From Candidatus Frackibacter sp. WG13 (GTDB lineage: Bacteria > Bacillota > Halanaerobiia > Halobacteroidales > Acetohalobiaceae), in NCBI RefSeq assembly GCF_900114655.1, contig NZ_FOTT01000027.1, positions 1-45,906 on the forward strand: a stretch of 45,906 bases of DNA, in the 5' to 3' direction. The position numbers and the translations under genes were made by a program. Each line of letters starts with the position of its first letter. Position 1 is the first letter of the stretch. Below the pieces are notes generated by a model. It saw only the letters and a list, made by a program, of their open reading frames with translations, was not told where the DNA came from and searched no databases. Below are positions 13,646 through 35,118 of this stretch, piece after piece.

Positions 13646-13774
13646 TTAAGGCTAGTGAAGATATGATGTATATAAATAAGGTTAATTGAAATAATAAAAA
13701 ATGATAAGGTTATTTTTAGATGGTAGGAGAAGTTGATAGAAGACTAAGGGTGGTTGGGTTAAGGAGTGAAAAAA

Positions 13775-14296
13775 ATGGCCCACAAATACGTAAGTTGGAA
13801 AGTGTTGATTGTAGCTTTAGTTGTAGTAGGAGTTTTAGGATATGGAACTATTAAGTATACTGAACGTCCAAAATTTTGTGCCAGTTGTCATGAAATTGAA
13901 CCTGCATATAATAGTTGGAGTACTTCTACTCATGACGGTATTAATTGTATGGAATGTCATGCTGACGAAGGAAAAATTGGATTAATTAAGCGCAAATTGG
14001 CTGCCTCAAAAGAAATCTATAAACATCTGCTAGGTGAGACTGAAAATATTGAGGGAGATGTACCTAGTGAGCGTTGTATAAAATGTCACGAAGAGATTGA
14101 AACAGTAAGCGAGAGCGACCAAATTAATATTCCTCACCAAAAACATATAGGTGCTAATATTGAATGTACTGCTTGTCATGCAGAAGTCGTTCATGGAAGT
14201 ACAGGGTATAGAAGTCCTGGGATGGCGGTATGTTCTAAATGTCATGATGTTTATAATCCTGACAAGTGTATTAAATGCCATCAAAAAGTTAGTTAA
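13775..14296 (+). CDS. membrane-anchored multihaem c-type cytochrome, NapC/NrfH-like (six CXXCH)
   Basis: 173 residues with one N-terminal membrane anchor (about 10-28) and six haem-binding motifs: CASCH, CMECH, CIKCH, CTACH, CSKCH and CIKCH. NapC/NrfH proteins have four haems, so two are extra. They take electrons from the quinol pool and hand them to periplasmic reductases. No reductase lies next to it. A GTG at 13766 is in frame, but AAGGAG at 13761-13766 serves the ATG at 13775. It needs a cytochrome c maturation system that is not in this window. Confidence 0.88.
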   Translation: MAHKYVSWKVLIVALVVVGVLGYGTIKYTERPKFCASCHEIEPAYNSWSTSTHDGINCMECHADEGKIGLIKRKLAASKEIYKHLLGETENIEGDVPSERCIKCHEEIETVSESDQINIPHQKHIGANIECTACHAEVVHGSTGYRSPGMAVCSKCHDVYNPDKCIKCHQKVS

Positions 14297-15235: not shown

Positions 15236-15559
15236 ATGGCAGGAGAAAATGTGATTGAATTAAATGAAGATAATTTTCAAGAAGAGGTTTTAGAAGTAGA
15301 GGGAAAGGTATTAGTTGATTTTTGGGCTCCTTGGTGTGGACCTTGCAAACAGATAGCACCATTTGTTGAGGAACTAGCTGATGAGTATGCTAGTGAATTA
15401 AAGGTAGGAAAGGTGAATGTTGATAATAATCAAAATTTAGCTGCTGAGTATGGTGTAATGAGTATTCCTACGTTACTTGTATTTGAAGGTGGAGAGATTA
15501 TTGAGAAGCAGGTTGGCTTTACTAATAAGGATGGTTTAAAGGAATTAATTAGTGATTAA
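15236..15559 (+). CDS. thioredoxin
   Basis: 107 residues with the canonical active site WCGPC (Cys34, Cys37) and the cis-proline loop SIPTLLVF. Cytoplasmic disulfide reductase and general reductant donor. AAAGGAGGCG precedes the ATG. Neighbours are a small ferredoxin, a rhodanese, a seleno-glutaredoxin and the class II ribonucleotide reductase, so it may supply electrons to that enzyme. A thioredoxin reductase is not present in this window. Confidence 0.96.
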   Translation: MAGENVIELNEDNFQEEVLEVEGKVLVDFWAPWCGPCKQIAPFVEELADEYASELKVGKVNVDNNQNLAAEYGVMSIPTLLVFEGGEIIEKQVGFTNKDGLKELISD

Positions 15560-15623: not shown

Positions 15624-15666
15624 AGTCTGATTTTTATTTAAATTAATATTGGGAGGGTATAGTAAA

Positions 15667-16044
15667 GTGAATAATAAAGTTGTAGTAATTATATTACTTT
15701 TATTAGTAGGTTTTGTAATGTTTAGATCATTTTCGATGACAAAGAACCAAGGGTATCAAGATATTACTGCTTCAGAAGCTCAAAGAATGATTAAAAATGG
15801 AGATGTATTAGTAATTGATGTTAGACAGCCTTATGAGTTTCAAGAAGGACATATTAATGGTTCACAATTAATTCCTTTAGGCAAGATTAAGACTGCTTAT
15901 AAGGAACTTGACCCTAATCAAAAGATTATCTTAGTTTGTACAAGTGGATCACGAAGTTCAAGTGCTGCTAATTTTCTGTCGCAACAAGGCTTTACTAAAG
16001 TTTATAACTTAGATGGAGGTCTTTTAGCGTGGAGTAAACTATAA
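15667..16044 (+). CDS. membrane-anchored single-domain rhodanese
   Basis: 125 residues with an N-terminal membrane helix (about 4-20) and one rhodanese domain. The catalytic Cys is about residue 91 in CTSGSRSSSAA, and DVRQPYEFQEGHI is the usual first motif. It transfers sulfane sulfur to a thiophilic acceptor, probably on the outer face of the membrane if the helix is a simple anchor. GTG start at 15667 behind GGGAGGG; the earlier in-frame TTG at 15649 would overlap that site. A shared role with the thiol proteins around it is plausible. Confidence 0.88.
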   Translation: MNNKVVVIILLLLVGFVMFRSFSMTKNQGYQDITASEAQRMIKNGDVLVIDVRQPYEFQEGHINGSQLIPLGKIKTAYKELDPNQKIILVCTSGSRSSSAANFLSQQGFTKVYNLDGGLLAWSKL

Positions 16045-16080: not shown

Positions 16081-16142
16081 TTGACAATTTAGATTATATA
16101 CTATATAATTTAAATGTAAGTACCCCAGCCCCATGGGGGAAC
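16081..16142 (+). promoter_or_regulatory. sigma-A promoter with C-tract/G-tract palindrome (site B)
   Basis: TTGACA (16081-16086), 17-nt spacer, TATAAT (16104-16109), then TACCCCAGCCCCATGGGGGA from 16121. The palindrome starts 11 nt after the -10 box, as at site A. It drives the leader of the seleno-glutaredoxin gene. Confidence 0.62.
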
Positions 16143-16163
16143 AAAAAATAAATAAGCTATGAG

Positions 16164-16272
16164 TATCCCCTTATAACCCCTATCAATTTTTAAAATTATA
16201 CCTCTCAGTTATAATTTTTTATAAGGGGATATTTTTTTTATTTTAGTAGATACTAAGATAAAAGCTGAGAGG
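16164..16272 (+). promoter_or_regulatory. leader terminator with loop complementary to the Shine-Dalgarno
   Basis: A perfect 13-bp stem (TATCCCCTTATAA at 16164-16176 with its complement at 16219-16231) is followed by eight Ts, so it is a canonical intrinsic terminator placed between promoter and gene. Its 42-nt loop holds CCTCTCAG (16201-16208), which is complementary to CTGAGAGG (16265-16272) at the ribosome-binding site of the glutaredoxin. This pairing would hide the Shine-Dalgarno and resembles a pseudoknot switch. Confidence 0.65.
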
Positions 16273-16282
16273 AGGCTTAATA

Positions 16283-16516
16283 ATGAATCATGAGATTAAA
16301 CTTTATACTACTCCTACCTGACCTGCTTGCCACCAGGTGAAAGAGTTTCTTTCCCGCAAAAATGCAAATTATACTGAATTTGATGTAGCTAAGGATACAA
16401 ATGCTAGAGAAGAGATGATTAATATGACTGGGAAGTCGGCGGTGCCAGTGGTTTTAGTAGACGATGAAGTGATGGTAGGGTTTGATCCGAATAAATTGAA
16501 TGAAATTTTACACTAG
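16283..16516 (+). CDS. selenocysteine-containing glutaredoxin/NrdH-like protein
   Basis: 77 residues if the UGA at 16319-16321 is read as selenocysteine (residue 13). The active site then reads TPTUPAC, against the normal CPxC, and the downstream frame continues with glutaredoxin features (SAVPVVLVDDEVMVGFDP, containing the cis-Pro). Reading it as a stop would leave 12 residues. A hairpin fitting a bacterial SECIS follows. AGAGGAGG stands 7 nt before the ATG. It lies directly upstream of the class II ribonucleotide reductase, for which it may be a reductant. Stop is TAG. Confidence 0.9.
16319..16353 (+). promoter_or_regulatory. UGA selenocysteine codon and bacterial SECIS hairpin (glutaredoxin)
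   Basis: After UGA (16319-16321) the stem GAAAG/CTTTC (16339-16343, 16349-16353) closes the loop AGTTT, 22 nt after the UGA, with a G among the first two loop bases. This fits the known bacterial SECIS rules for distance and loop. An alternative ACCTG/CAGGT stem lies closer to the UGA. Confidence 0.7.
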
Positions 16517-16528
16517 AGGATTATTTTG

Positions 16529-16560
16529 AAGGAGCTGGTAAAAAACTAGCTCCTTTTTTT
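16529..16560 (+). terminator. intrinsic terminator after the seleno-glutaredoxin gene
   Basis: AAGGAGCTGGT and ACTAGCTCCTT arms (one mismatch) with an A-rich loop and a T run. Confidence 0.9.
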
Positions 16561-19966: not shown

Positions 19967-20275
19967 ATGAAAGCAATTAAATCAAAAATAAGTAGTATTG
20001 GAGCAGTAATTTCAGCATTTTTTACTGGGATTTGTTGAATTACGCCAGTTATTTTTGCACTACTAGGGCTTAGTGGTGTCGGCTTAGGTCAATTGGCTAT
20101 CTTAGGTAAGTATCAACCTTACTTTTTGTTTTTAACTGTAATTATGTTAAGTTATTCTCATTATTCTTATTATGTTAAGGGACAGGGAGATAAGAAGACG
20201 AGGAATATTCTATGGTTTAGTACAATCATGGCTGGTAGTTTAATTCTGTATACTTATCGCTATCTTTTTATATAA
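19967..20275 (+). CDS. selenocysteine-containing MerT-like membrane protein
   Basis: 102 residues if UGA at 20036-20038 is decoded as selenocysteine (residue 24). The first helix then reads FFTGICUITPVIFALLGLSG. In MerT mercury transporters this position is a vicinal Cys pair (CC) followed by GP; here Cys-Sec replaces Cys-Cys. Three membrane helices are predicted and the C-terminus is short. A SECIS-like hairpin lies in the reading frame. GAGAGGAGAG precedes the ATG. It likely moves a thiophilic metal or metalloid; which one is not shown. No merA, merP or merR is present. Confidence 0.85.
20036..20078 (+). promoter_or_regulatory. UGA selenocysteine codon and bacterial SECIS hairpin (MerT-like)
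   Basis: After UGA (20036-20038), the 8-bp stem CACTACTA/TAGTGGTG (20058-20065, 20071-20078, one wobble) closes the loop GGGCT. The loop starts 27 nt after UGA and begins with G, as bacterial SECIS elements require. Confidence 0.75.
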
Positions 20276-21545: not shown

Positions 21546-21848
21546 ATGGTTACTTTAAATCATTACTTACTATTAGCAGCAGCTTTGTTCTGTATTGGCT
21601 TATTTGGAGCATTATCTAAGCGTAATGCTATAGCTGTATTGATGTCAATTGAATTAATGTTAAATGCTGTTAATATTAACTTGGTAGCATTTTCACATTT
21701 TCTCGCTGATACAGTGGGGCAGGTATTTGCAATCTTCGTTATTGCTGTTGCAGCTGCAGAGATAACTGTTGGAATAGCAATGGTTATTGCTATCTATCGC
21801 AACCGCTTTTCAGTTAACGTCAATGAGTTTAATCTATTGAAATGGTAA
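21546..21848 (+). CDS. nuoK: complex I subunit NuoK
   Basis: 100 residues, three membrane helices, normal length. The family motifs [28 protein letters not shown] are all present, including the two membrane Glu (about 36 in IELM and 70 in AAAEI) that belong to the proton path. It is the first gene of the operon rather than the eighth, as explained under NuoL. GGGAGG precedes the ATG. Confidence 0.95.
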
Positions 21849-21879
21849 TTAATAAAGTTAGAGAGGGGTGACCCTGTTA

Positions 21880-23808
21880 ATGGTAGAATATGCTTGGTTG
21901 ATTCCGGTATTGCCACTGTTTTCTTTTTTAATCATCGTTTTATTTGGGCGATACCTTAAAAATGACAGTGATAAGATTGGGATAGGATCTTTATTTATCT
22001 CGTTCTTATTAGCCATTGGAGTATTATTAGAAGTAATCAATGGATCTACTATAACAAAAGAATTTGTCTGGGCAACACATGGAGATATTGAAATTGCTTT
22101 TGGTTATAGTGTAGATGCATTGACTGCCATGATGTTTGTGGTAGTTACATTCGTAAGTTTGATGGTACATGTATACTCTAAAGGCTATATGGAAGGAGAT
22201 AGTAGATACAAACGTTTTTACGCTTGTTTATCATTATTTACTGCGTCAATGTTAGGTTTAGTAATTGCTAATAATTTACTTTTACTCTTTATCTGTTGGG
22301 AATTAGTAGGATTATGTTCTTACCTATTAATTGGTCATTGGTTTGAGGATATTGAAAATGTTTTGGCAGCAAATAAAGCCTTTTTAACTACTCGTGTTGG
22401 AGATATTGGAATGTTAATAGGTGTAATTATGATCTTCGCCATGGGTAAGACCTTTAATTTTGCTGAGTTAACGCATCTTGTTGAACATGGAGAAATTGCA
22501 GGGGTGGGTTTAACTGTAGCAACAATATTTCTTTTTGTTGGTGCTATAGGTAAATCAGCTCAGTTTCCACTACATGTTTGGCTACCTGATGCTATGGCTG
22601 GTCCGACACCGGTGAGTGCTTTAATTCACGCTGCTACTATGGTAGTAGCTGGAGTTTATTTAGTAGCAAGAATGTTCTTAATCTTTGCTGCGGCTAAGAC
22701 TACATTAACAGTAGTAGCATTTATTGGTGGCTTTACAGCTATCTTTGCTGCAAGTATAGCTTTAGTAGAAGAGGATATAAAAGGGGTCTTGGCTTACTCA
22801 ACGATCAGTCAGTTAGGTTATATGGTTTTGGCTTTAGGAGTAGGAGCTTATACAGCTGGAGTATTTCATCTTATGACTCATGCTTTCTTCAAAGCACTAT
22901 TATTCTTAGCTTCTGGTAGTGTAATCCATGCAGTGCATACCCAGAATATGCATAAGATGGGTGGTTTATTAAAGAAAATGAAGGTTACAGGTTGGACTTG
23001 GATTATAGGTTCGGCTGCCTTAGCTGGAGTACCACCTTTTAGTGGATTCTGGAGTAAGGATGAAATTCTATTAGGCGCTTATCATTCCGATTATAAAATT
23101 CTATTTTGGATTGGAGTTATTGCAGCTTTCTTTACAGCCTTCTACATTACTAGAGCAACAATTATGACTTTCTTTGGAGAACCTAGAGATGATCATGCTT
23201 ATGAACATGCACATGAATCACCATCAGTTATGACTATTCCATTAATTCTTTTAGCTATATTAGCATTTGGATCTGGATTTGTGAATTCTCCATTGACAGA
23301 TATGGCATTTGGAAAGTTTATAGCTCTTGAACATGGTCACCATGCTTCACCAAGTAGTTTTGTCCAGATGACAGCAGTTGGAGCGACGCTATCAGGAATT
23401 ATTTTAGGTTGGCTTATCTATGGACTTAGGATCATTTCACGGAAGTCAATTATTAAGTTCCTATATCCGGTTTGGCGCTTATTAAAAGGAAAATACTTTA
23501 TCGATGAAATTTACAATGTAGTTGCTATTAGAGGTTCTTTAGCTTTATCCAAATTAATTGGTGCGTTTGATAAGTATGTAGTAGATGGAATAGTTAATTT
23601 AACTGGTAGGCTAGGCGTCTTTATAGGTGATTTAATAGGTGACTTTGATAACAAGGTGGTTGATGGTGCAGTCAATGGTGTCAGAAATACTTTCTATGTT
23701 GGAAGTAGGTTAATAAGGAATGCACATACTGGTTATTTACAGTCATATGCTTTAACATTATTTTTCTCTGTGCTAATTGGTTTAATTATTATAGTGATAG
23801 GAGGATAA
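21880..23808 (+). CDS. nuoL: complex I subunit NuoL (proton pump)
   Basis: About 642 residues, the largest antiporter-like subunit, with around 16 membrane helices and the long C-terminal lateral helix region (after about 480). Motifs LLFICWELVGLCSYLLIGHW (with the key Glu) and FPLHVWLPDAMAGPTPVSAL are canonical. A GTG at 21868 is in frame, but GAGAGGGGTGA serves the ATG at 21880. In most bacteria nuoL follows nuoK at the operon end; here K-L-M-N come first and A-B-C-D-H-I-J follow. Confidence 0.95.
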   Translation: MVEYAWLIPVLPLFSFLIIVLFGRYLKNDSDKIGIGSLFISFLLAIGVLLEVINGSTITKEFVWATHGDIEIAFGYSVDALTAMMFVVVTFVSLMVHVYSKGYMEGDSRYKRFYACLSLFTASMLGLVIANNLLLLFICWELVGLCSYLLIGHWFEDIENVLAANKAFLTTRVGDIGMLIGVIMIFAMGKTFNFAELTHLVEHGEIAGVGLTVATIFLFVGAIGKSAQFPLHVWLPDAMAGPTPVSALIHAATMVVAGVYLVARMFLIFAAAKTTLTVVAFIGGFTAIFAASIALVEEDIKGVLAYSTISQLGYMVLALGVGAYTAGVFHLMTHAFFKALLFLASGSVIHAVHTQNMHKMGGLLKKMKVTGWTWIIGSAALAGVPPFSGFWSKDEILLGAYHSDYKILFWIGVIAAFFTAFYITRATIMTFFGEPRDDHAYEHAHESPSVMTIPLILLAILAFGSGFVNSPLTDMAFGKFIALEHGHHASPSSFVQMTAVGATLSGIILGWLIYGLRIISRKSIIKFLYPVWRLLKGKYFIDEIYNVVAIRGSLALSKLIGAFDKYVVDGIVNLTGRLGVFIGDLIGDFDNKVVDGAVNGVRNTFYVGSRLIRNAHTGYLQSYALTLFFSVLIGLIIIVIGG

Positions 23809-23812
23809 GATT

Positions 23813-25273
23813 ATGTTATCTACATTAGTATTTGTTCCTTTAATTGGAGCGATTATCACTATGTTCTTGCCAAAAGAAGAAGATAGGATAATTAAGATAT
23901 TTGCTCTGTTAGTAAGTTTAATTCCTATTGTATTGGTAGGAATGATGTGGTTAGATTTTGATATGGCTGCTGCAGGAATGCAGTTTGTTGAAAAAGCAGA
24001 ATGGATTCCAAGTTTAGGGGTTACTTATCATTTAGGAGTTGATGGGATCAGTTTTCCTTTGTTAGTCATTAGTGCTTTAATTACTACTATGGCAATCATT
24101 ACATCCTGGAATATAGACCATCGAGTAAAAGACTTCTTTGCTTTTGTTCTTTTGTTAGAAACTGGTCTATTAGGATTGTTTGTTGCTCTTGATTATGTAT
24201 TATTCTATATCTTCTGGGAGATTGTTCTGGTTCCTATGTATTTCTTGATAGGAATTTGGGGTGGACCTAGAAGACGTTATGCTTCAATTAAGTTCTTCAT
24301 CTATACCTTGTTAGGTAGTGTAGTGATGCTAGTTGGTATTTTGGCTCTATACTTTGGGAGTGGGTTACAGACATTCGATATATTAACTATTGCCCAACAG
24401 GCTAATCTATCTCCAACCTTCCAATGGTGGTTGTTCTTGGCTTTCTTCTTAGGATTTGCAGTCAAGGTACCAGTCTTCCCGTTTCACACTTGGTTACCTG
24501 ATGCTCACGTGGAAGCGCCAACTGGCGGTAGTATGTTACTAGCTGGTGTATTATTAAAGATGGGGGCTTATGGGTTCTATAGAATTTCATATACTACTTT
24601 TCCGGATGCTGCACAATCTTTCGCTTTATTCATGGGAGTCTTAGGAGTTGTTAATATTATTTACGGTGCATTAGCTGCTATGGCTCAAGAGGATGTTAAG
24701 AAGATGGCTGCTTATTCAAGTATTAGTCATATGGGCTTTGTGTTGGTTGGTTTAGCAGCAATGACTCCGATGTCAATGAATGGTGGATTATATGTTCTCT
24801 TTTCACACGGATTGATTTCACCACTAATGTTCTTCTTTGTAGGTAGTGTCTTTTATGATAGAACTCATACACGAATGATGGGAGAATTAGGAGGCTTATA
24901 TACTAAGATTCCATTAGCAGCTGGTTTACTTGCTTTTACCGCTTTTGCTAATCTAGGTCTACCAGGGTTATCTGGATTTATTGGTGAGTTCTTCACCTTT
25001 GCTGGTACTTGGACTGAGTTGCCTAATTTAGTAATGATTGCGGTAGTTGGTTTAGTATTCACTGCGGCTTATCATTTGCGGATGATGCAAAAAGTATTAA
25101 TGGGTGATGCGCCTGCTAAGTACGATGGACTACCGGATATTAGTGCTCGGGAATTATGGGTAGCAATTCCATTAATGTTACTTATCATTTGGGCTGGCAT
25201 CTATCCCAATACTTTATTATCATTCTTTAATCCATCAGTAGAGTCAATCTTAGCAGTACTAGGAGTGATGTAA
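23813..25273 (+). CDS. nuoM: complex I subunit NuoM (proton pump)
   Basis: 486 residues with about 14 helices. Signature FYIFWEIVLVPMYFLIGIWGG carries the conserved Glu, and FPFHTWLPDAHVEAPTGGSMLLAGVLLKMG is complete, including the Lys of the middle channel. AGGAGG lies 8 nt before the ATG and the gap to nuoL is only 4 nt. Confidence 0.95.
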   Translation: MLSTLVFVPLIGAIITMFLPKEEDRIIKIFALLVSLIPIVLVGMMWLDFDMAAAGMQFVEKAEWIPSLGVTYHLGVDGISFPLLVISALITTMAIITSWNIDHRVKDFFAFVLLLETGLLGLFVALDYVLFYIFWEIVLVPMYFLIGIWGGPRRRYASIKFFIYTLLGSVVMLVGILALYFGSGLQTFDILTIAQQANLSPTFQWWLFLAFFLGFAVKVPVFPFHTWLPDAHVEAPTGGSMLLAGVLLKMGAYGFYRISYTTFPDAAQSFALFMGVLGVVNIIYGALAAMAQEDVKKMAAYSSISHMGFVLVGLAAMTPMSMNGGLYVLFSHGLISPLMFFFVGSVFYDRTHTRMMGELGGLYTKIPLAAGLLAFTAFANLGLPGLSGFIGEFFTFAGTWTELPNLVMIAVVGLVFTAAYHLRMMQKVLMGDAPAKYDGLPDISARELWVAIPLMLLIIWAGIYPNTLLSFFNPSVESILAVLGVM

Positions 25274-25274
25274 T

Positions 25275-26717
25275 ATGAATGTTGGAATCTTTACTCCAGA
25301 AATAGTGATGGTTATTACACTAATAGTTATTTTAGGTGTTAAGTATCTGGCTAAGAATCAATTTACAGTGGGATTAACAGCAGTAGTGGGCTTGATAACT
25401 GCTGGAGTTTCATTAGCTTATCTAACTGATGACTTAGGCATGATATGGGGACACTCATTTGTTGTAGATAGTTATTCTATCTTCTTTAAAGCTTTATTAA
25501 TAGGTGTTGCTGTGGTAGTAAGTGTCATCTCATTTAAGTATGTAGAGGAGAAGAAGATAAAGCCTGGTGAATTCTATAGTTTATTAGTTGCTTCGACATT
25601 AGGTATGTTAGTGATGGTTTCGTCTTATAGTTTAGTTTCAATCTATATAGGATTGGAGTTAATGTCAATTTCGGCTTATATTCTTATCGGTATGTTACAG
25701 GAGGATAAGCGTTCAACTGAAGCAGCATTAAAGTACTTATTAATTGGAGCATTAACTTCAGCATTATTACTCTTTGGAGTTTCTCTACTTTATGGAGTGA
25801 CTGGTACTACCAATTTAATTCAGATTGCTGAAGTAGTAAGCTCTGGCCAAGGTGCTTTAACAGCTACAGCTGCTTCTATGACTCCACTTTTGATGATGGG
25901 AGTAGTCTTCGTTTTAGCCGGTTTTGGGTTTAAAGTAGCAGCTGTACCATTCCATATGTGGGCACCTGATACTTATGAAGGAGCACCGACTTCGATTACT
26001 GCTTTTTTGATCACTGGTTCTGAAGCGGCAGCATTTGCAGCATTGTTAAGAGTGTTTAATGTAGGACTTAGTGAATTGGCAGAAACTTGGTCACTATTGA
26101 TTGCGATTTTAGCTCTGCTTTCAATGACTTTAGGTAATATTGGTGCTTTAACTCAGACCAATGTTAAGCGAATGATGGCTTATTCAGCTATTGCTCAGGC
26201 AGGTTATGTGTTAGTAGGGGTTGCTGTTGCTACTCAAAGTGGAATCTTCCCGGTACTTTACTATCTGTTAGCTTATGCATTTATGACTCTAGGTTGTTTT
26301 GCAGTCATAATCTTGCTTAGTAATAACTTCGATAGTGAAGAGTTAGATGACTTTAGAGGATTGAGTGAGAAGGCACCAATGTTTGCTGCGGCAATGACTC
26401 TATTCTTTTTATCATTAGTTGGAATTCCACCAACAGGAGGATTTTTAGGTAAATTCTTTATCTTTAAAGCAGCGATAGGGAGTAACTATCTATGGTTAGC
26501 CTTAGCAATGGCAATTAATAGTGTTATCTCTTTACCTTACTACTATGGTGTAGTAAAGAATATGTACCTTGAAAGCCCAACTAATAATATGAAACTGACT
26601 ATACCATCAGAATTAAAATTTGTAGTCGGATTTTCAGCAATAGCGATTTTAGGATTGGGCATTATTCCTGAAAAGTTTATTAACCTAATTCAATTAGCAG
26701 CTAACTTTGTCTTCTAA
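25275..26717 (+). CDS. nuoN: complex I subunit NuoN (proton pump)
   Basis: 480 residues with about 14 helices. Conserved motifs are SIYIGLELMSISAYILIG (Glu) and VAAVPFHMWAPDTYEGAPTSITAFL. It starts one nt after the nuoM stop, so it is coupled. The three antiporter subunits give the usual proton-pumping capacity. Confidence 0.95.
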   Translation: MNVGIFTPEIVMVITLIVILGVKYLAKNQFTVGLTAVVGLITAGVSLAYLTDDLGMIWGHSFVVDSYSIFFKALLIGVAVVVSVISFKYVEEKKIKPGEFYSLLVASTLGMLVMVSSYSLVSIYIGLELMSISAYILIGMLQEDKRSTEAALKYLLIGALTSALLLFGVSLLYGVTGTTNLIQIAEVVSSGQGALTATAASMTPLLMMGVVFVLAGFGFKVAAVPFHMWAPDTYEGAPTSITAFLITGSEAAAFAALLRVFNVGLSELAETWSLLIAILALLSMTLGNIGALTQTNVKRMMAYSAIAQAGYVLVGVAVATQSGIFPVLYYLLAYAFMTLGCFAVIILLSNNFDSEELDDFRGLSEKAPMFAAAMTLFFLSLVGIPPTGGFLGKFFIFKAAIGSNYLWLALAMAINSVISLPYYYGVVKNMYLESPTNNMKLTIPSELKFVVGFSAIAILGLGIIPEKFINLIQLAANFVF

Positions 26718-26753
26718 ACTAATATGAAATAAAAGTATTTAGGAGGTGCTCAA

Positions 26754-27107
26754 ATGTATGAGTTTAATGGGATTGTAATATTCTTTATTCTGGGTCTATT
26801 AATGCCTATTGGTGCTTTGATTGGAGCTTATATCTTAGCGCCTACAAAGTCATCCCCACAAAAATATTTAACGTATGAATGTGGTCTAGATACCAGAGGA
26901 GAAACTTGGGTTCAGTTTAAGATCTGTTACTTTCTATATGCATTAGTCTTTTTAGTCTTCGATGTAGAAACGATATTTTTATACCCATGGGCTGTTACTT
27001 TTCAACAGCTAGGAACATTTGCTTTTGTTGAAATGTTTATCTTTATTGCAATATTGATAATAGGCTTTGTTTATGCCTGGAAGGAAGGTGCGTTAGAATG
27101 GTTTTAG
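26754..27107 (+). CDS. nuoA: complex I subunit NuoA
   Basis: 117 residues, three helices. [32 protein letters not shown] is the family core, including the Cys loop near the quinone site. AGGAGGTG precedes the ATG. This is where a normal nuo operon would begin. The end overlaps nuoB by 10 nt. Confidence 0.95.
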
Positions 27108-27607
27108 ATGAAAAGAATAGGAGTAGAGTTTCTCTACTCCATGAAATTTTAGATAAAGATAATGTAAAGAATAATATAGTTTTAACTACTGTTGATAAGG
27201 CACTTAATTGGGCACGAGGTAATTCAATTTGGCCTTTGACTTTTGGGTTAGCTTGTTGTGCAATTGAGATGATGGCAACAGCTGCTTCACGGCATGATTT
27301 AGCCCGGTTTGGTTATGAGGTATTTCGAGCCTCACCTCGGCAAGCTGATTTAATGATTATCGCCGGTACCATTACTAAGAAGATGGAGCCGGCTGTGCTA
27401 AGAGTTTACGAGCAGATGCCAGAACCTAAATATGTATTAGCTATGGGCAGTTGTGCTATTAGTGGAGGACCATTTGCTGAATCATATAATGTGGTAAATG
27501 GTGGAGATGAATTCTTACCAGTAGATGTATATGTTCCTGGTTGTCCGCCACGACCTGAAGCGTTGATCTATGGAATTTTGGAATTGAGACGAAAAATTCA
27601 ATCATAA
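27098..27607 (+). CDS. nuoB: complex I subunit NuoB (N2 cluster)
   Basis: 169 residues. It holds the terminal N2 [4Fe-4S] cluster next to the quinone site. Ligand Cys are visible in [12 protein letters not shown] (the adjacent pair), [10 protein letters not shown] and [14 protein letters not shown]. Short N-terminal helix before the domain. Overlap with nuoA implies translational coupling. Confidence 0.96.
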
Positions 27608-27619
27608 AGGAGGGTCAAG

Positions 27620-28021
27620 ATGAAGCCAAGTGTAATCAAGAATCAAATTGAAGATGGAAGTATTAATATAGAGGCTGATAGGTTATATAAGACAATGAAA
27701 ATTTTAAAGACAGCATCAGAATTTAATTACGAGTATTTAATTAACCTTACAGCTGTAGATTATCAAGAATACCTAGAAGTAGTATATCATCTATTTTCAT
27801 TACAAACTGGTGATCGCTTAGAAGTTAAAGTTGAAGTAGACCCTCAAGAACCTGAGGTTCCATCAGTAATGGATATCTGGGGGTCAGCTGATTGGCAGGA
27901 GCGTGAAGTTTATGATATGTTTGGGATAACTTTTAGTTGTCATCCTAACTTAAAACGAATCTTACTAACGGATAATTTTGAAGGATATCCTTTGCGTAAG
28001 GATTTTAAATTAAGTACTTAA
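27620..28021 (+). CDS. nuoC: complex I subunit NuoC
   Basis: 133 residues, near the short end for the family. The C-terminal signature [25 protein letters not shown] and GYPLRKDF is intact. Peripheral arm subunit beside NuoD; not fused to it, unlike in E. coli. AAAGGAGGG precedes the ATG. Confidence 0.93.
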
Positions 28022-28057
28022 ATTTAAACTAAGATAATAAGAAATGAGGTGTAAAAG

Positions 28058-29176
28058 ATGAAAGAGGTTGTTGACCAAGGGATTAAAACGCAAGAAATAG
28101 AGGTTAACTTTGGTCCTCATCATCCTAGTACTCATGGTGTTTTTCGAATGGTTTTAACTCTTGATGGTGAGAATGTTCGTAAAGTTAATCCTCATGTTGG
28201 TTATTTACATCGAGGTATTGAAAAGTTAGCAGAGAAGCGAACTTATGCACAATGTGTACCTTTTACTGATCGTCTAGATTATATCTGTTCTATGACCAAT
28301 AATTTAGCTTATGTGCAGACAGTTGAACAGCTATTAGATTTAGAAGTGCCAACACGGGCTGAATATATTAGAGTGATAGTTTCTGAATTACAAAGAATAA
28401 TTAATCATTGTGTTTTTTGGGCGACTTTTGGTAATGACTTAGGTTCACAAACGGCTTTAATGTATGGCTTTAGAGACCGAGAGATGATTCTAGATGTATT
28501 TGAAGAGTTAACAGGCTCACGAATGACTTACAGTTATATGCGGATTGGAGGTGTAGCTAAAGATATCTCCGATGAACAGTTGAAGGAGATAGAAAGAATA
28601 GTAGATTATATGCTAGATGAAGCACTGCCAGAATATCATAATTTGATCACTGGTAATGAAATATTCCAAGCACGGACTAAAGATATTGGAATACTCAAAC
28701 CAGAAACAGCGATTGATTATGGAGTAACAGGTCCTAACCTTCGAGCTAGTGGAGTAGAATATGATGTACGTAAAGACCAGTCATATGGGATTTATGATAA
28801 GTTTGATTTTGATGTACCTACAAGAGATAAAGGAGATACATATAGCAGATATATAGTCCGCTTAGAGGAAATAGAACAGAGCTGTTTAATTATTAAGCAA
28901 GCGTTAAATATGATACCAGAAGGTAAAGTCCAAGTTAAGAGAGTACCAAAGCGGCCACCAGATGGATCTACTTACAGTAGTATTGAGTCACCAAAAGGTG
29001 AGTTAGGCTTCTACTTAGTAAGTGATGGCTCCAAGAGACCATATCGTTTTCGAGTACGTCCTCCGACCTTTATTCACTTGATGGCACTAGAAGAGATGAT
29101 GATTGGTGAAAAAGTTGCAGATGCTATTGTTATCTTAGGTAGTATTGATATTGTTTTAGGCGAGGTAGATAGGTAA
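28058..29176 (+). CDS. nuoD: complex I subunit NuoD (quinone site)
   Basis: 372 residues. FGPHHPSTHGVFRM at the N-terminus provides the His of the quinone headgroup site, and the Tyr in KRTYAQCVPFTDRLDYICSM follows. The C-terminal SPKGELGFYLVSDG and RPPTFIHL motifs are intact. The nickel-ligand Cys of related hydrogenases are absent, so this is complex I and not an Ech-type hydrogenase. Confidence 0.95.
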   Translation: MKEVVDQGIKTQEIEVNFGPHHPSTHGVFRMVLTLDGENVRKVNPHVGYLHRGIEKLAEKRTYAQCVPFTDRLDYICSMTNNLAYVQTVEQLLDLEVPTRAEYIRVIVSELQRIINHCVFWATFGNDLGSQTALMYGFRDREMILDVFEELTGSRMTYSYMRIGGVAKDISDEQLKEIERIVDYMLDEALPEYHNLITGNEIFQARTKDIGILKPETAIDYGVTGPNLRASGVEYDVRKDQSYGIYDKFDFDVPTRDKGDTYSRYIVRLEEIEQSCLIIKQALNMIPEGKVQVKRVPKRPPDGSTYSSIESPKGELGFYLVSDGSKRPYRFRVRPPTFIHLMALEEMMIGEKVADAIVILGSIDIVLGEVDR

Positions 29177-29220
29177 AGAATTATTACTAAAACTAATTTT
29201 AATTAGAGGAGACGATTCAT

Positions 29221-30252
29221 ATGGGTGCTTTACAGAATTTATTTGTTAACCTAGCTCTATTTTTTCGCGAGAGTATGGTCAATATAGGTTTTTCACAACT
29301 TGGCATTGAGGCAACTATGGATCTTGTAGCAGGGATAGGAGTTTTAGCTGTAATCGCTATTTCAGCATTGGTTTTGATCTATGTTGAACGAAAAGTTGCC
29401 GGTTTTATTCAAGTAAGATTAGGACCTAATCGAGTAGGACCAAAAGGTACGTGTCAGACTGTAGCTGACGCTTTAAAATTAGTTGGAAAAGAGGATATTA
29501 TACCAGATAGAGTTGATAAAGTACCATTTATGATAGCACCTATTCTATTTTTTGCTCCAGCAGTTTTGGCTTTTGCTATTATTCCTTTTGGAGAAAATAT
29601 GATTCCTATAGATATGAATATTGGGATTTTCTATTTCATCGCTGTCTGTTCTTTAAGTACTATTCCTATAATCATGGCTGGATGGAGTTCGAATAATAAG
29701 TATTCGTTGTTAGGAGCAATGCGAAGTTTAGCTCAGTCATTAAGCTATGAAATTCCACTAGTATTTTCGATTCTAGGGGTAGTAATGATTACAGGTTCTT
29801 TGCAGATGAGTGATATTGTTGCTGCTCAATCGGATATGTGGTTTATCGTAACACAACCGATAGCGTTTTTGATATATCTTATTGCTGGAGCAGCTGAGAC
29901 TAATCGACCACCTTTTGATTTACCTGAAGGTGAATCGGAATTAGTTGCTGGGTATATGACAGAGTATAGTGGAATGAGATGGGCTCTCTTCTTCTTAGCT
30001 GAATATGCACACCTGTTTATAGTTTCAGCTATGGCTACTACTTTATTCTTAGGTGGGTGGCATGGACCTATCTTACCATCTTACATTTGGTTCTTATTAA
30101 AGACAGGGTTTATGATCTTTATCTTAATTTGGGTAAGATGGACTTTTCCACGGATCAGAATAGACCAACTATTAAGTTTAGGTTGGAAGTTTTTACTACC
30201 ACTTTCGTTATTAAATATATTAATAACTGGAGTTGTACTTTATATTATCTAA
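29221..30252 (+). CDS. nuoH: complex I subunit NuoH
   Basis: 343 residues with eight helices. [23 protein letters not shown] and [27 protein letters not shown] are the conserved loops that link the quinone cavity to the proton path. It follows NuoD directly, with no NuoE, NuoF or NuoG gene between. GAGGAG precedes the ATG. Confidence 0.96.
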
Positions 30253-30266
30253 GTGGGGGTGATTAG

Positions 30267-30686
30267 ATGTATGGGCAAGGATTGTTAAAAGGGTTAGCTA
30301 CTACTCTAAAAGAGTACTTTGGAGGTTATACTACGCAGGAATATCCAGATGAATATCCTAATCTACCGGATACTTTCCATGGTTCATTTGAATTAGACGT
30401 AGATAAGTGTGTTGGCTGTACAGTATGTGATAGAAATTGTCCTAACTCAGTAATTGATTTAAAGATAAATCGTGGTGAAGATAAGAAGAAAGAGATTGTT
30501 AGATTTAAAGTTGATTTAACAAGGTGTCAGTTCTGTGGATTATGCACAGAAGGATGTCCAACAAATGCTTTGAAATTTAATCAAGAATTTGAATTAGCTA
30601 CTTATAATAAAGAGGATTTAATATTGAACTTATTAGCTGAGAAACCAACTCAAACAAAACCAAAGAAGAAAAAAGAAGTCAGTTAA
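30267..30686 (+). CDS. nuoI: complex I subunit NuoI (two [4Fe-4S])
   Basis: 139 residues with CVGCTVCDRNCPNS and CQFCGLCTEGCPTNA, the N6a/N6b cluster motifs. The C-terminus is a Lys-rich tail. Without NuoEFG, this subunit is the likely docking site for an external donor such as a ferredoxin, as proposed for 11-subunit complexes. GGGGGTGAT precedes the ATG. Confidence 0.94.
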   Translation: MYGQGLLKGLATTLKEYFGGYTTQEYPDEYPNLPDTFHGSFELDVDKCVGCTVCDRNCPNSVIDLKINRGEDKKKEIVRFKVDLTRCQFCGLCTEGCPTNALKFNQEFELATYNKEDLILNLLAEKPTQTKPKKKKEVS

Positions 30687-30711
30687 CTAATATAGGCTGG
30701 AGGTGAAATGA

Positions 30712-31209
30712 ATGGGATTAGAGGCTATAAGCTTCTTGGTTTTAGCGATTATTACCTTAAGTTCGGCTTTAGCATTAGTATTATCAAGAAATATAGTTCA
30801 TAGTGCCTTGTTTTTAATTCTCAGTTTTGTTGGGGTGGCTGGATTATATCTTTTAATGCAGGCTAATTTTTTAGCTGCGGTTCAAATATTAGTATATGGT
30901 GGAGCGATTGCTATAATTTTAGTCTTTGGAGTTATGTTAACTCAAAGAGAAGATATGTCTAGTACTAACCTGTTTAATAAACAGAAAGGATTAGCTCTTT
31001 TAGTTGCTTCAGTATTATTAATGGTTATTAGTAGGGTTATTTGGCTGACTAAGTGGGGAAGCATTACTACGATTAAGACTACTGTTCATAATATAGCTAC
31101 TGTAATGTTACAGCAGTATGTGCTTCCGTTTGAGATAGTAGCTATATTGTTATTAGTAGCAATGATTGGTGCTATAGTTCTAGCTAAAAAGGTAGAGAAA
31201 GCAAGCTAA
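30712..31209 (+). CDS. nuoJ: complex I subunit NuoJ
   Basis: 165 residues with five helices; the third carries AVQILVYGGAIAIILVFGVML, the pi-bulge helix of the family. It is the last nuo gene; NuoK is at the other end of the operon. Leader element 3 lies 26 nt after its stop and would end or throttle the transcript. Confidence 0.93.
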   Translation: MGLEAISFLVLAIITLSSALALVLSRNIVHSALFLILSFVGVAGLYLLMQANFLAAVQILVYGGAIAIILVFGVMLTQREDMSSTNLFNKQKGLALLVASVLLMVISRVIWLTKWGSITTIKTTVHNIATVMLQQYVLPFEIVAILLLVAMIGAIVLAKKVEKAS

Positions 31210-34206: not shown

Positions 34207-34239
34207 TTTTATTTATTGAAAGGGGTGAAAAATTTAAAA

Positions 34240-35118
34240 ATGAATATAAGAAAAGGATTATATTTAATATTGATGCTGAGTTTATTATTTGTCTTTAATG
34301 GTGTGCTTTTAGCCCAGGATAATATTCCTGCTGCTAATAAATCATGTTTGACTTGTCATCAACGAGAAGGGTTTAGCACTAAGCATGACGGCAAAGAGAT
34401 ATCATTAACTGTTGACCCAGCTGTACTAGCAGATTCGGTTCATAAGAATAATCCATGTACTACTTGCCACATGAATATTCAAGGTTTTCCGCATCAAGAT
34501 GTAGTTTATGGTCAAGAGTTAACAGTACAGGTGACTAAGAGTTGTCAGATGTGTCATGCTAATGTAGCTAAGGATTATAAAGCAAGTAAACACTGGAAGG
34601 CAACAAAAAATGGTATGGCTGATGTAAGCTGTAATGCGTGTCATGGTGAGCATAATGTGCAGAAACTAGAACTAACTAAACAAGAGGAAGTTAAAATGTG
34701 TACTCAATGCCATCAAGGAGCTATTTTAGAAGGTTATAAGCAGAGTTTTCATGGTAAAGCAGTATTATTAGGCAGTCAAGAATCAGCCAGTTGTGTAGAC
34801 TGCCATGGCGCCCATAAGGCATTAGGGGATGAAGTAGCTGCCTCACCAGTCTCAGCCAAGAACAAACCAGCTACTTGCGCTAAGTGTCATCAGGATGCGC
34901 AAGCAAATTTTGCTAAAGGAAGTGAACACTTAACTTTATCAGCAAAAGATAAGAATAAGATTCCATATTACATTAGTAAAGCGTATATATGGTTGATTAT
35001 CTTAACTATTGGGTTTATGTTAGTTCATATCTTAATTGAGTTATTTGGTAAGTTTAGAAAGGCTAAGAAAGATGATATTACGATAGATGTAGATGATTCA
35101 GATATAGATCTTAATTAA
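34240..35118 (+). CDS. seven-haem c-type cytochrome with C-terminal membrane anchor
   Basis: About 292 residues. A signal peptide (about 5-25, ending LLAQD) is followed by seven CXXCH motifs: CLTCH, CTTCH, CQMCH, CNACH, CTQCH, CVDCH and CAKCH. A single helix at about residues 250-272 anchors it, leaving an acidic tail in the cytoplasm. The next gene encodes a cytochrome b-like protein, so the two probably form a quinol-oxidising electron-transfer module. ATG at 34240 behind AAAGGGGTGA. No terminal reductase is in the window. Confidence 0.9.
   Translation: MNIRKGLYLILMLSLLFVFNGVLLAQDNIPAANKSCLTCHQREGFSTKHDGKEISLTVDPAVLADSVHKNNPCTTCHMNIQGFPHQDVVYGQELTVQVTKSCQMCHANVAKDYKASKHWKATKNGMADVSCNACHGEHNVQKLELTKQEEVKMCTQCHQGAILEGYKQSFHGKAVLLGSQESASCVDCHGAHKALGDEVAASPVSAKNKPATCAKCHQDAQANFAKGSEHLTLSAKDKNKIPYYISKAYIWLIILTIGFMLVHILIELFGKFRKAKKDDITIDVDDSDIDLN

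Follow-up and report, generated by a model that had tools for sequence, protein, structure and literature searches.

A glutaredoxin gene of Candidatus Frackibacter sp. WG13 in which an in-frame UGA is very probably read as selenocysteine

RESULTS

A YruB-type glutaredoxin frame with a single in-frame UGA

The window analyzed here is one entire contig (C15) of 45,906 nucleotides from the genome of Candidatus Frackibacter sp. WG13 (G000; 2.77 Mb in 48 contigs). As listed in Table 1, it contains a frame that starts with an ATG at position 16283, preceded by the Shine-Dalgarno (SD)-like sequence GGAGG, and ends with a TAG at 16514-16516. The sole interruption of this frame is one TGA at codon 13, with 64 open codons 3' of it. 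When the UGA is read as selenocysteine (Sec), the product is a protein of 77 amino acids (MNHEIKLYTTPTUPACHQVKEFLSRKNANYTEFDVAKDTNAREEMINMTGKSAVPVVLVDDEVMVGFDPNKLNEILH). An earlier sequence-only reading had proposed that the UGA takes the place of the first active-site Cys (TPTUPAC) and that a complete glutaredoxin follows, and the family searches agree with this. The UGA sits at the catalytic Cys (UPAC), the second Cys is retained, and the read-through product scored 71.2 bits against Pfam Glutaredoxin PF00462 (curated cut-off, 22.9). With Cys in place of Sec, it also scored above the curated cut-off of the NCBIfam YruB-type family TIGR02196 (91.7 versus 88.55), although the genome-search version of this match remained slightly below it (82.9). 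The same UGA occurs in many members of this family from the phylum, and the family also contains many Cys members. The protein further resembles the UXX-star glutaredoxin-like (seleno)proteins (NF041212) in having Sec as the first residue of the motif, but its score was below the curated cut-off of that model (64.7 versus 66) and, unlike in UXX-star proteins, the second Cys is kept here (UPAC).

Table 1. Features of the glutaredoxin locus (window coordinates)
Feature	Position	Strand	Basis
Promoter-like site TTGACA-17-TATAAT, 12/12 consensus	16081..16109	+	consensus match only
CCCCATGGGG palindrome just after the -10 box	16129..16138	+	only CCCC-N(0-4)-GGGG in the window
Leader hairpin (about UAUCCCCUUAUAA ... 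UUAUAAGGGGAUA), then U run	16161..16237	+	possible attenuator; fold versus shuffles
Very probable selenocysteine glutaredoxin gene, YruB type, 77 aa	16283..16516	+	frame, family scores, UGA-aligned relatives
UGA codon, predicted Sec13, first active-site residue of UPAC	16319..16321	+	
TGC codon, predicted resolving Cys16	16328..16330	+	
Predicted SECIS hairpin core GAAAGA-GUU-UCUUUC	16339..16353	+	folding and codon conservation in relatives
Intrinsic-terminator-like hairpin between glutaredoxin and class II ribonucleotide reductase	16528..16556	+	

Of the 1571 TGA triplets on the two strands of the window, only 2 are in frame with an upstream SD and ATG and are followed by at least 64 open codons. 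Both belong to conserved selenoprotein candidates, and the glutaredoxin frame is not a chance occurrence. Among the 47 window ORFs counted, 4 end in TGA; 0 to 15 open codons lie beyond these TGAs, compared to 64 in the glutaredoxin gene, thus TGA is still a stop codon here. This locus very probably encodes a selenium-using glutaredoxin in which a stop codon is read as Sec.

Genes for selenocysteine insertion

The sequence-only reading had named the selenocysteine genes and Cys homologues aligned at the UGA as possible checks, and both came out in its favor. The genome holds SelA, SelB, SelD, and tRNA-Sec. A selC-selB-selA cluster, with the three genes side by side, is located on another contig (L034:7662-13913; G000:C29), where selB matched TIGR00475 with 397.6 bits in a profile search (cut-off, 242), the adjoining tRNA-Sec gene scored 68.4 bits with Rfam (gathering score, 47) and carries the anticodon TCA (UCA) according to ARAGORN, and selA is the ORF adjoining selB upstream, recognized from its sequence by eye. 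A little further on lies an fdhD-like ORF. The selD gene, on contig C19 (398 bits; cut-off, 125), has its own in-frame TGA at the Sec position (GGUAAKLGPETL), followed by a GUU triloop (TCGCAA-GTT-TTGCGA) in this genome and in four relatives. Formate dehydrogenase alpha genes were sought as a second SECIS for comparison, but none of the matches in the genome contained an in-frame stop, including the strongest one (C29:13957-15954), and selD was used instead. Matches to tRNA-Sec above the gathering score were found in all 13 genomes of the order.

Conservation of the UGA codon

Among the 13 genomes of the order, the glutaredoxin gene is present in two, this genome and G004, both with the TGA. 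The G004 ortholog (L018:1498-1731, G004:C9) is 72% identical, and its UGA occupies the same codon. For the 64 codons that follow, dN was 0.15 and dS 1.32, indicating that selection acts on the part downstream of the UGA as protein. Among 398 sampled genomes of the phylum, many YruB-type matches contained exactly one TGA. In the loci that were read in detail, the residue at the UGA codon was U in 49 rows, which include this gene and one near-duplicate, and Cys in 45 rows. Apart from this gene and its G004 ortholog, these loci comprise about 46 relatives with UGA at this codon, nearly all in the same phylum, and others with Cys. The homologues are full length and not only truncated forms, with UGA or Cys exactly at the position of the UGA. 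A tree of the Sec and Cys forms (78 rows, 5 label changes) was poorly resolved, with too few columns, and is compatible with a single origin. A mobile origin was considered and rejected, as plasmid records contained only distant relatives with less than 60% identity.

A hairpin downstream of the UGA resembles a bacterial SECIS element

The sequence-only reading had described a hairpin with a G near the start of its loop, 22 nt after the UGA. This hairpin is indeed present and consists of a 6-bp stem, GAAAGA (16339-16344) and UCUUUC (16348-16353), closed by the loop GUU (16345-16347). Counted from the UGA, the loop G is base 24, and 22 bases precede the loop if the closing A-U pair is open (loop AGUUU). 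Published bSECIS elements follow the pattern N1-G-[G/U]-N-N2; their loop lies 16-37 nt downstream of the UGA and carries a G as its first or second base, in many cases with G or U behind it. The bSECIS model further uses an upper stem of 4-16 bp and a minimum free energy no higher than -7.5 kcal/mol. The loop (GUU, or AGUUU without the closing pair), its distance (24 nt), and the stem length (6 bp) fit this description. The folding energy varies with the span considered, from -2.8 kcal/mol for the core to -7.0 for 33 nt and -10.9 for 50 nt. By itself the core is weak, and the published cut-off of -7.5 is reached only with flanking sequence included. In this gene alone the hairpin is only modestly unusual (P = 0.035, 2000 synonymous recodings).

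Much clearer was the codon usage across the VKE(F/Y)LS segment of 39 distinct UGA genes, for which identical amino acids at other sites of these genes served as control. All 39 use GTG-AAR-GAG-TWT-CTT. Val is GTG in 39/39 hairpins versus 29% elsewhere, Glu is GAG in 39/39 versus 27%, Leu is CTT in 39/39 versus 14%, Tyr is TAT in 18/18 versus 46%, and Phe is TTT in 21/21 versus 79%. Fisher P values for this codon freezing are inflated by shared ancestry, but the control positions have the same ancestry. Conserved residues before position +6 show almost maximal synonymous diversity, which drops abruptly at the hairpin, and the codons of conserved residues that flank the hairpin vary freely. The G+C content of these loci ranges from approximately 32% to 62%. 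The only Cys relative encoding VKEFLS, L067, has GAA for GAG and consequently lacks the loop G. In the G004 gene, UGA and stem are retained, but GAT replaces GAG and yields a UUU loop that fails the bSECIS loop-G pattern. Conservation of the loop G is thus not absolute, and Sec insertion is less certain for the G004 gene. The Rfam model SECIS_1 gave no match in the whole genome, which is uninformative since none of 14 control genomes matched either, and an Rfam scan of the window and the leader returned chance-level matches only, none above the gathering score. Taken together, there is strong evidence, mainly from conservation across relatives rather than from the fold of this single gene, that the hairpin would act as a SECIS element.

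A second selenoprotein candidate in the window

The window scan yielded a second SD, ATG, and TGA frame on the forward strand, at 19967-20275, with its UGA at 20036-20038. With Cys for Sec, the product is a MerT-like membrane protein (Pfam MerT, 41.4 versus 32.9 bits) with a vicinal Cys-Sec pair (GICUITP). Its sole relative in the order is found in G004 and has TGA at the same codon, and in both genomes the UGA is followed by a hairpin whose loop begins with GG. Judged from these features, 19967-20275 is likely a second selenoprotein gene. A recent review lists a mercuric transport selenoprotein with the motif C/SxxU (PMC13188914), and the vicinal CU found here may be a different Sec position.

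Leader and gene neighborhood

The glutaredoxin gene is preceded by a leader of about 165 nt (window 16117-16282) that folds better than shuffled sequences (z = -3.5). Within it, CCUCUCAG (about 16202-16209) could pair with the SD region CUGAGAGG (about 16266-16273). This pairing, together with the hairpin and U run (Table 1), suggests attenuation or a switch. In the G004 leader, this hairpin layout was not seen in the same form by eye. The combination of the CCCCATGGGG motif and a consensus promoter was found once in the genome. The palindrome presumably resembles CsoR/CstR-type operators, but a model with a CsoR/CstR-type regulator acting at CCCCATGGGG was rejected, given this uniqueness and the copper-type appearance, by eye, of both CsoR-family genes, and is kept only as a lead.

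The gene order that this genome shares with G004 is multihaem cytochrome c, small ferredoxin, thioredoxin, rhodanese, Sec-glutaredoxin, and class II ribonucleotide reductase; thioredoxin, rhodanese, and the reductase in the window were named by family search and all others by eye. Elsewhere in the window, a complex I-like (nuo) cluster spans 21546-31209, in which no NADH-module genes were seen by eye, and the same contig carries several multihaem cytochromes (13766-14296, 34216-35118).

DISCUSSION

By far the best explanation of the locus is a dithiol glutaredoxin whose catalytic first Cys is replaced by Sec (U13-P-A-C16), with Sec inserted by SelB at the hairpin, and we hold this with high confidence. 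It is carried by the frame, the family, the machinery, the conserved UGA, the purifying selection after the UGA, and the conserved RNA hairpin, all as read from the DNA; Sec incorporation itself, the catalytic cycle, and the partner protein and reductant considered below are inferred. The closest solved protein is PDB 7c10, listed in the PDB table as 'Glutaredoxin' only, which a matching organism-specific paper and its sequence features identify as probably cGrx1 of Clostridium (Alkaliphilus) oremlandii. cGrx1 is reported to be natively a selenoprotein in which residue 13 of a U(or C)PXC motif is catalytic and Cys16 resolving, and has been proposed as the reductant of a Sec-containing MsrA (PMC7642778). 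The protein described here shares with 7c10 the glutaredoxin fold, the U/C-P-x-C motif, the catalytic residue 13, Cys 16, and the VKEFLS helix, although the overall sequence similarity is only moderate (67.6 bits). In the locus described here, SelB carrying Sec-tRNA(Sec) would bind the hairpin 24 nt after the UGA, so that Sec is inserted instead of termination. By analogy with C. oremlandii Grx1, the selenol of U13 would then attack a disulfide (or oxidized thiol) of a partner protein, the resulting selenylsulfide would be resolved by C16, and the enzyme would be regenerated by a thiol reductant, either glutathione or a thioredoxin-reductase system.

The gene context allows several suggestions for the task of such an enzyme. 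One, which we regard as unlikely but worth keeping in mind, is that this genuine Sec-glutaredoxin works with its neighbors, the thioredoxin (15236-15559) and the rhodanese (15649-16044), and that its main task is the handling of sulfur, selenium, or metals. Both genes lie immediately upstream in the two genomes, a CCCC-GGGG palindrome is located at the promoter, and the MerT-like selenoprotein is encoded nearby. However, this support is a matter of context, and of the two CsoR-family regulators found, which look like copper-type CsoR by eye, one lies beside a CopA-like ATPase.

A role as electron donor of the adjacent class II ribonucleotide reductase, comparable to NrdH, appears rather improbable. 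The sequence-only reading had placed the glutaredoxin directly before this reductase, and with regard to position this is correct, both here and in G004, where it also adjoins nrdJ. Yet, a terminator-like hairpin separates the two genes, which makes a common operon unlikely, the score against the NrdH redoxin model TIGR02194 (55.5) is below the curated cut-off of 85.75, and nrdJ was not recognized by eye beside the more distant UGA relatives inspected. A functional link based on adjacency in two genomes is thus possible but weak.

Returning to the Sec-glutaredoxin itself, a conserved frame alone does not name the residue at the UGA, and general recoding or near-cognate read-through could in principle place a residue other than Sec there. 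We consider this very improbable, as the homologous residue is Cys, tRNA-Sec(UCA), SelA, and SelB are present, TGA terminates other genes in the window, and the hairpin that follows shows conservation at the RNA level. Even less credible is a recent pseudogene, in which a Cys codon (TGC/TGT) mutated to TGA and the gene died: the lone TGA is the only lesion and Cys relatives exist, but the conserved UGA largely rules this out, since the same UGA occurs in a sister ortholog with strong purifying selection after it, and the UGA and the codon-frozen hairpin recur across many families of the phylum.

Sec-glutaredoxins are already a known kind of protein, and this gene adds a further member; the review mentioned above counts glutaredoxin (PF00462, UxxC) among the known prokaryotic selenoproteins, with Sec forms in a limited number of bacteria (PMC13188914). 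By comparison among relatives, the codon freezing cleanly demonstrates a bacterial SECIS within a coding sequence. We tentatively suggest, as a possibility that falls short of an expectation, that an almost invariant SECIS (GTG-AAR-GAG-TWT-CTT), preserved as nucleotide sequence in many families of the phylum, determines part of helix 1 of the protein, and that the sister gene with the G-less UUU loop reflects either a SelB of this lineage that tolerates loss of the loop G, or a selenoprotein gene caught losing its SECIS. The G-less gene of G004 thereby offers a natural test of the requirements of SelB. The Sec-glutaredoxin gene could easily be overlooked by gene finders, and annotation with the standard code would shorten or miss both selenoprotein genes. 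With the glutaredoxin and the MerT-like protein, a lineage with a complete Sec system gains two likely selenoproteins.
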